Shown: in pieces, positions 6,918-9,205 of the stretch
Layout of the letters: every line of letters begins with the position of its first letter
How positions within the stretch are numbered: the stretch's first letter is position 1
Assembly: GCF_001293565.1 (NCBI RefSeq)
Contig: NZ_JXMU01000010.1
Coordinates: forward strand, 62,001-126,000
Length of the DNA: 64,000 nt
Direction of reading: 5' to 3'
DNA from: Ahrensia marina
GTDB taxonomy: Bacteria > Pseudomonadota > Alphaproteobacteria > Rhizobiales > Rhizobiaceae
Translations under genes and position numbers: made by a program
Notes under the pieces: model-generated
Seen by the model: only the letters and a program-made list of their open reading frames with translations
The model's database searches: none
What the model was told of the DNA's origin: nothing

Positions 6918-8897
6918 TTATGACTTCCTTGCCAAGCGTTTACGCATGACATCAGGCGGTGTGGCCTCTTCAACCAGGGAAGCAATCGCTTCATCCAGTT
7001 GCATCGGTGTCTGGTTACGTGAACCAAGCCTGCGGATATTGACCATGTTTTGGTCCGCTTCGCGCTGCCCGATTACGATAATGACAGGCACTTTGGCGAC
7101 AGAATGTTCGCGCACCTTGTAGTTGATCTTCTCGTTGCGGAAATCAGTTTCCACTTGCAATCCGGCATCCCGCAATTGTTCCGCGACATCTTCCGCATAT
7201 GAATCAGCTTCCGATGTGATGGTCGCCACCACAATTTGTGTAGGCGCGAGCCATAGCGGGAAATGCCCTGCATAGTTTTCCAGGATAATGCCAAGAAAAC
7301 GCTCCATTGAACCACAAATGGCGCGGTGAATCATCACCGGCTGCTTTTTCTCAGAATCACTATCGATATAGAAAGCGCCAAAACGTTCCGGCAGGTTGAA
7401 GTCGACCTGCGTTGTACCACACTGCCATGTGCGCCCGATCGCATCTTTCAATGTGTATTCAAATTTCGGCCCGTAGAATGCACCCTCGCCCGGATTAATA
7501 CCGGTTTTGATACGCCCGCCGGATTTGGCTTCAATCTCTTTGAGCACATTGGTCATGACCTCTTCGGCATGATCCCAATTTGCATCGGAGCCGACACGTT
7601 TTTCAGGACGTGTTGAAAGAAGAACTGTAATTTCCTCAAAGCCGAAATCTTCATAAACCGACAGGATCAGATCGTTGATCCGCATACATTCGGCAGCCAG
7701 TTGCTCCTCGGTACAGAACACATGCGCATCATCTTGCGTAAAGCCGCGCACGCGCATCAAACCATGCAGTGCGCCCGATGGTTCATAGCGGTGTACAACA
7801 CCGAATTCCGCCATGCGGATCGGCAAATCACGGTAAGATTTCAAACCATGCTTAAAAATCTGCACGTGCCCCGGACAGTTCATCGGCTTGAGTGCAAATG
7901 TGCGCTGGTCTTCGGCTTCAGGATCAGCCGATTTAACACCGAACATGTTCTCTTTGTACCACTGCCAGTGACCGGAAGTTTCCCAAAGGTCCGAGACAAG
8001 CACCTGCGGTGCGTTGACCTCTTCATAGGTACCGGCCAAACGGCGGCGCATATAGGAAACAAGTTCCTGAAAAATGCGCCAGCCCTTACCGTGCCAAAAC
8101 ACGGTTCCCGGCCCTTCTTCTTGGAAGTGGAATAGATCCATTTCGCGTCCAAGGCGGCGGTGGTCGCGCTTCTCGGCTTCCTCAAGCATATGAAGATATT
8201 GGTCGAGCTCTTTTTGCTCGGCCCATGCTGTGCCGTAAATACGTGTCAGCATTTCATTGTCAGAATCGCCGCGCCAGTAAGCGCCAGCCACCTTCATCAG
8301 TTTAAAGGCAGTGCCGATTTGGCCGGTCGACGCCATGTGCGGACCGCGGCAAAGGTCGAACCAGTCGCCCTGATAATAGATTTTCAGGTCTTCATCACCC
8401 GGAATCGCGTCAATAAGTTCAATCTTGTAGGTTTCACCTTTATCGGCAAAAACCTGCTTGGCCTTTTCGCGGGACCATATTTCCTTTGTAAACGGCTGAT
8501 TGCGCTGGATAATCTCGCGCATTTTCTTTTCAATCAGCGGCAGTTCTTCTTCGGTAAAAGGCTTGTCGCGTTTGAAATCATAGAAGAAGCCATTCTCGAT
8601 CACAGGGCCGATAGTCACTTGCGTGCCGGGAAAAAGCTCCTGCACGGCTTCCGCCATCACATGCGCGGCATCATGGCGAATAAGCTCCAATGCACGTTCA
8701 TCACTGCGTGTTATAATCTCAACAGAGCCTGTGACGATTTCATCGGTAAGGTCGCGCAAAACGCCGTCAATCGCGATAGCAACTGATTTTTTGGATAATG
8801 ATTTGGATATTCCTTCAGCAACATCGCGACCAGTAGTGCCCGCAGAATATTCGCGGATCGAGCCATCGGGAAATGTGAGGGAAATTGAATCAGACAT
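6918..8897 (-). CDS. thrS: Threonine--tRNA ligase
   Basis: A 659-residue class II synthetase of full bacterial architecture. It has an N-terminal TGS domain (1-62), the editing domain starting with [12 protein letters not shown] near 75 and containing DLCRGPHM, a catalytic core with [11 protein letters not shown] (zinc-binding Cys near 338), [15 protein letters not shown] and motif 3 around [14 protein letters not shown], and a C-terminal anticodon-binding domain. It charges tRNA-Thr and clears mischarged Ser-tRNA-Thr. AGGAG lies six bases before the ATG at 8897. Immediately upstream of that site is a hairpin resembling a tRNA-Thr anticodon arm, suggesting feedback control by ThrRS itself. 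Confidence 0.97.
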
Positions 8898-8912
8898 TTT
8901 CTTCTCCTGTCC

Positions 8913-8935
8913 AGTCCCGCCTACAATGCGGGTGG
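8913..8935 (-). promoter_or_regulatory. Candidate thrS translational operator mimicking the tRNA-Thr(UGU) anticodon arm
   Basis: On the thrS strand the leader holds CCCGC-AUUGUAG-GCGGG (8932 to 8916): a 5-bp stem with a 7-base loop. Read as an anticodon loop it has U at position 33, UGU at 34-36 (a threonine anticodon) and A at 37. CCA (8935-8933) and UGG (8913-8911) could extend the stem past a two-base bulge. Its 3' side is seven bases from the AGGAG of thrS. In E. coli, ThrRS represses its own translation by binding anticodon-arm mimics ahead of the ribosome binding site; the layout here is the same in principle. The structure is seen, the function inferred. Confidence 0.55.
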
Positions 8936-8951
8936 TTTATCAACGCCTGTC

Positions 8952-9118: not shown

Positions 9119-9205
9119 GCGGTCGTGGCGGAATTGGTAGACGCGCAGCGTTGAGGTCGCTGTGGGCTAACCCCCGTGGAAGTTCGAGTCTTCTCGACCG
9201 CACCA
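9119..9205 (+). tRNA. tRNA-Leu (anticodon GAG)
   Basis: An 87-base class II tRNA. The acceptor GCGGTCG pairs with CGACCGC, followed by discriminator A and an encoded CCA. The anticodon stem CAGCG/CGCTG holds loop TTGAGGT, anticodon GAG at 9153-9155. There is a long variable arm and a T-loop TTCGAGT. It reads CUC and CUU codons. A short palindrome, CCGATG-TTT-CATCGG (9070-9084), lies about 35 bases upstream; no clear terminator follows. Confidence 0.97.

Follow-up and report, generated by a model that had tools for sequence, protein, structure and literature searches.

The thrS operator of Escherichia coli is the textbook case of an mRNA that imitates a tRNA; it lies in a leader of about 160 nt and is usually presented as a single system. 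Threonyl-tRNA synthetase (ThrRS) keeps the 30S subunit from binding by attaching to anticodon-like arms in its own leader, and a change of the leader triplet to that of Met yields control by MetRS (PMC11088916, PMC9976931). Yeast AspRS is a eukaryotic synthetase that is bound to an anticodon-loop mimic in an mRNA (PMC9976931), and further eukaryotic synthetase-mRNA pairs with anticodon mimics appear in two other reports (PMC6542539, PMC9956033). The logic of a synthetase and its mimic is shared, while the sequences and sites of the eukaryotic cases are unrelated to the rhizobial hairpin described here.

We analyzed a window of 64,000 nt from Ahrensia marina (contig NZ_JXMU01000010.1), in which thrS occupies 6918-8897 on the minus strand, with its ATG at 8897-8895, and encodes a ThrRS of 659 aa (TIGR00418, 693 bits). 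The thrS leader (minus strand, 8940..8881) reads ATAAACCACCCGCATTGTAGGCGGGACTGGACAGGAGAAGAAAATGTCTG. It holds a complete anticodon-arm-like hairpin at 8935-8911 on the same strand, as indicated by the sequence, the folds and covariation. The lower helix pairs CCA (8933-8935) with UGG (8911-8913) and the upper helix pairs CCCGC (8928-8932) with GCGGG (8916-8920); an AC bulge (8914-8915) separates the two 3' strands. The upper helix closes the 7-nt loop AUUGUAG (8921-8927), which places U33 at 8926, the anticodon-like triplet UGU (positions 34-36) at 8923-8925 and A37 at 8922. The hairpin is followed by AC, the Shine-Dalgarno sequence AGGAG (8904-8908, 2 nt past the hairpin end), AAGAAA and the thrS AUG at 8897. 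A preliminary description of this DNA had reported the 5-bp upper stem and its 7-base loop, with U33, UGU and A37 in place and seven bases (ACUGGAC) between that stem and AGGAG, and all of these are present in the sequence. The lower helix and the AC bulge extend the arm beyond the stem that was described there, and the arm then spans precisely the 8911-8935 named for it.

The hairpin is exactly the minimum-energy fold, both alone (-11.0 kcal/mol) and in a context of 191 nt, and AGGAG borders it but stays unpaired with it. As the folding energy itself is nothing unusual (z of about -1.2 and -1.5), it was dropped as evidence. The frequency by chance of a 5-bp hairpin with a 7-8-nt loop carrying U33-N-G35-U36 is 0.00025 (1 of 4000 dinucleotide shuffles of a 100-nt leader), and such hairpins with a 7-nt loop occur nine times on both strands of the whole window. 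The anticodon-like hairpin of the thrS leader is real and stands far above chance expectation. Its stem is not copied from tRNA-Thr: among the tRNA-Thr genes found in the same genome, tRNA-Thr(UGU) has ACUGA/UCAGU and tRNA-Thr(GGU) has CUCCC/GGGAG, both different from the hairpin, so the imitation lies in the loop and the geometry. A tRNA-Leu(GAG) gene (9119-9205, plus strand) lies just upstream of thrS on the opposite strand, about 190 nt from the hairpin.

An inspection of 80 named thrS loci, nearly all from Rhizobiales, revealed ACCACCCGC-AUUCGUUG-GCGGGACUGGA directly 5' of the Shine-Dalgarno sequence in almost all of them; these named relatives also identify the order of the window as Rhizobiales (Hyphomicrobiales). 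The loop has 8 nt and its triplet is mostly CGU, with GGU in five loci and UGU in one; the sequence upstream varies freely and the hairpin block is constant. Compensatory stem changes are seen in Mesorhizobium (L070, CCUGC/GCAGG) and Anderseniella (L085, GCUUAC-CUGC/GCAG-UGA-GUGAGC). The 7-nt loop of the window was therefore not general, as most Rhizobiaceae carry 8 nt; even in the genus of the window, two of three species have 7 nt (G000, G002) and the third has 8 nt (G001).

R1, a covariance model built from 24 sequences, matched 45 of 61 relatives, and comparison with the places of thrS put 42 of the matches just upstream of that gene; the E-values of the survey are rough, as the calibration was short. 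Two of the three other matches look like chance (G045, G049), and the third (G001), from a fragmented assembly, precedes what looks like a thrS start on a contig of its own. Most of the non-matches, read by hand, contain the same hairpin in a diverged version: its lower helix is longer and has A-U as the closing pair, the 3' bulge includes GA, the upper helix has 4 bp, and the loop often has the 7 nt of a true anticodon loop (GUGGUUG, AUUGUGA, GUUGUAG, CUUGUUU, UUGGUAG, UCCGUCG, GCAGUAU and others). As R1 was blind to most families outside Rhizobiaceae and the divergent form was found by reading, a second model, R2, was built from 40 sequences. R2 gave 134 matches in 132 of 160 genomes of the order. 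All but seven of these (127) lie 211-308 nt (median 218) upstream of the start of the thrS profile match, which places them at the start codon, and the rest are two chance matches or cases in which a contig breaks or the place of thrS is not listed. Inspection of 18 leaders among the remainder added nine more hairpins, and in some of these the upper helix has been replaced entirely (CCAC/GUGG, CCGG/CCGG). With this hand count, the hairpin is found immediately upstream of thrS in 136-139 of 152 assessable genomes. There is essentially one match per genome, and thrS is the only gene found carrying the hairpin, which ties the element to thrS alone.

The order survey also found the hairpin missing in a few families (f6, f188) and in single genomes (G054, G130, G486, G407). 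In the family of the window, two reduced genomes have lost the hairpin (G007, L247) or carry a degraded one (G008, L248), which suggests that the control was lost with genome reduction. Two genomes carry a second thrS copy without the hairpin beside a copy that has it (G036, L266; G059, L265); these second copies may have been acquired or may be differently controlled. Of 308 genomes of the class, only those of the order itself and of a single sister family (f146; G181, G285) scored well, so that the element was absent from the other alphaproteobacterial orders sampled, and among 299 genomes of the phylum all convincing matches fell within the order. No Rfam family, T-box and Thr leader attenuator included, was found at the hairpin at gathering or permissive thresholds. 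Searches of the open-access literature turned up no account of such an element before thrS in Rhizobiales, an earlier one in a subscription journal being possible, and neither of two RNA-motif surveys mentions thrS in its main text.

The constraint on the element was read from an alignment (A3) of 67 sequences outside the set from which R2 was built, 65 of them distinct, fitted to R2. G35 and U36 are present in 65 of 65 distinct sequences. Base 34 is free (C 30, G 19, U 14, A 2), base 33 is U in 56, C in 8 and A in 1 (a pyrimidine in 64 of 65), and bases 37 and 38 are nearly random, with A, U, C or G at 37. The wobble-equivalent base switches among C, G and U and rarely to A (L014, L055, L056, L067, L068, L107, L264, L340, L348), as in the GGU of Allorhizobium and some Agrobacterium, the UGU of L107 and the AGU of L264, L340 and L348. 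Both sides change at 6 of 10 pairs with 97.8% of cells paired, a covariation score reached by 0 of 500 shuffles, and both helices covary among relatives in the order. The upper helix takes such forms as CCGC/GCGG, CUGC/GCAG, CCAC/GUGG and CCGG/CCGG, and the lower helix of other families is longer, resembling GCUUAC/GUGAGC. Two further features are invariant in the 65 held-out sequences: the bulged A (A3 column 26, window 8915) and the A-U pair that closes the lower helix (columns 5/28, window 8933 with 8913). What reads these two is outside what the anticodon-mimic model explains.

Since R2 itself expects GU, leaders picked by thrS position alone were checked. The helix plus GU is present in 102 of these 117 leaders, and none has a helix at the ribosome site with another dinucleotide. 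Where a different dinucleotide did turn up in a helix, which was seldom, the pairing was a chance one elsewhere or came from reading an NGU loop (L367) as 9 nt. Threonine anticodons are those of the form N-G-U. A loop in which G35-U36 is conserved and base 34 varies freely has the NGU signature of these anticodons, and the anticodon nucleotides are part of threonine identity (PMC9976931). The preliminary description had asked whether relatives keep U-NGU-A in the loop; the NGU part holds, while A37 and a strict U33 do not, and the conserved form is Y33-N34-G35-U36. A loss of the loop triplet or the stem among relatives would have counted against its reading; instead, through the order the stem covaries, the loop retains NGU and the hairpin stays beside the thrS ribosome site. 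On the evidence of sequence comparison, the bipartite NGU-loop hairpin that abuts the thrS Shine-Dalgarno sequence is under selection across Rhizobiales (Hyphomicrobiales).

A putative reader of the loop is encoded directly downstream. The ThrRS of the window matches the E. coli ThrRS structures 1qf6 and 1kog, which were crystallized with tRNA and operator, and its N588, E613 and R622 align with conserved N575, E600 and R609 of E. coli, which we take to be anticodon contacts. The anticodon-binding domain is thus predicted to be able to read G35-U36. With so direct a precedent in E. coli, we infer for the rhizobial thrS that ThrRS binds the leader and blocks the 30S subunit. Free ThrRS would bind the hairpin loop through its C-terminal anticodon-binding domain, as it does with tRNA-Thr, and the bound enzyme would cover the adjacent ribosome site and stop initiation. 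When uncharged tRNA-Thr rises or ThrRS is scarce, the tRNA would compete ThrRS away and thrS would be translated. Very probably, the hairpin serves as a one-armed operator through which translation of thrS is controlled autogenously, and the ThrRS feedback proposed in the preliminary description is supported, with its mechanism drawn by analogy. Several findings were counted against the operator. ThrRS acts as a dimer, for which the E. coli operator provides two arms, and one arm may not be enough; in two genomes the second thrS copy has no hairpin, and the stems are unlike the anticodon stems of tRNA-Thr. R2 favors GU, which is mitigated by the set chosen by position only. About 13 of the 152 assessable genomes are without the hairpin, so the control would be dispensable.

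The same ThrRS-bound hairpin might act mainly on decay or processing of the mRNA, for instance by shielding it from an endonuclease or exposing it to one, rather than by excluding the ribosome. A probably short leader and the change in mRNA stability that commonly follows blocked initiation both agree with this reading, but the hairpin is consistently placed directly 5' of the Shine-Dalgarno sequence, where competition with the ribosome is the best fit, and we consider a main role in decay unlikely. A purely structural element, which keeps the ribosome site open, offers a standby site or responds to temperature, would fit a hairpin that borders AGGAG without pairing to it. The GU of the loop would then be incidental, which leaves unexplained both the G35-U36 of 65 of 65 loops with 34, 37 and 38 free and the attachment to thrS alone; Rfam holds no such element either, and this explanation is very improbable. 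Anticodon loops are read by many proteins, and on such general grounds a tRNA-modifying enzyme, an anticodon nuclease or, as another trans-acting reader, an sRNA pairing with the loop could be invoked; no result here favors one. An enzyme acting on A37 fits poorly with A, U, C or G at base 37, an sRNA is not expected to tolerate a free base 34, and only thrS was found with the hairpin, so that a reader of this kind has the slimmest chance of all. Autogenous control by ThrRS at the ribosome site is the reading we keep.

If so, the order to which Rhizobium, Agrobacterium, Sinorhizobium and Mesorhizobium belong has conserved a much smaller device with the logic of the E. coli operator. With one arm of about 25 nt, it bears on what a minimal operator is, and the covariation record marks the constrained positions (G35, U36, the bulged A and the A-U pair). 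The hairpin would justify a new RNA family for annotation, and set against the gammaproteobacterial operator it raises, in clear form, the question whether the two are homologous or convergent.

For this comparison, 30 gammaproteobacterial thrS leaders were collected (66-91% identity to the N-terminus of E. coli ThrRS; L417-L446). The domain-2 hairpin of E. coli is present in 29 of them, about 20-45 nt before the thrS start, and the exception (L444) has a degraded-looking hairpin with CAU. Base 34 of the domain-2 loop varies (C, G, U, A) and GU is kept, a 3' CACU is invariant, and the helices covary strongly (10 of 13 pairs). Like the rhizobial arm, domain 2 is an NGU-loop hairpin just 5' of the Shine-Dalgarno sequence of thrS, with GU and a free base 34 in both groups. 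The two also share a split stem with an A-U pair closing the lower helix and a 3'-heavy internal loop that contains A, in which a single 5' base faces three or four 3' bases. The 3' side reads CAC-UG in gammaproteobacteria and GAC-UG in Rhizobiaceae, the 3' tails resemble each other (E. coli CACUGCAAAUAAGGA, Rhizobium GACUGGAUAAGGAG), and the upper helix has 4-5 bp in the rhizobial hairpin versus 7 bp in gammaproteobacteria. A covariance model of gammaproteobacterial domain 2 (R3) and R2 gave no significant cross match in either direction, and R3 had no match in 100 alphaproteobacterial loci from the class sample. The split-stem architecture is thus shared, while homology in sequence was not detected by R2 or R3.

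In E. coli domain 4, a GC-closed stem carries the 8-nt loop AUUUGUUG, which differs by one base from the common Rhizobiaceae loop AUUCGUUG; a local match GCAUUUGUUGGC is not significant (E 1.9). Domain 4 sits about 90-110 nt 5' of the start codon, while the rhizobial hairpin is beside the ribosome site. A second upstream mimic, as a counterpart of domain 4 (7-8-nt NGU loop, stem of at least 4 bp, within 110 nt upstream), was seen in only 1 of 99 leaders. A promoter-like motif, TTKAC-N17..19-TAT, occurs 36-51 nt before the hairpin in 55 of 81 Rhizobiaceae-type leaders (0.5% in shuffles); the window itself allows no clear assignment of a TTKAC-type promoter. From the spacing of this motif, the rhizobial thrS leader is probably only about 80-95 nt long.

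The preliminary description had likened the hairpin to the leader mimicry of E. coli. The NGU arm upholds that likeness, while the E. coli operator has paired arms, symmetrical for the ThrRS dimer, and the rhizobial leader has one. As paired arms are lacking and the working would be E. coli-like, we class the rhizobial element as a one-armed variant. An independent origin in the ancestor of Hyphomicrobiales (Rhizobiales), converging on the split-stem arm beside the ribosome site and working with one arm on each mRNA, is a serious possibility that falls somewhat short of being probable. By analogy with E. coli, rhizobia and their relatives very probably let ThrRS switch off its own production, with a one-hairpin device that is simpler than that of E. 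coli.
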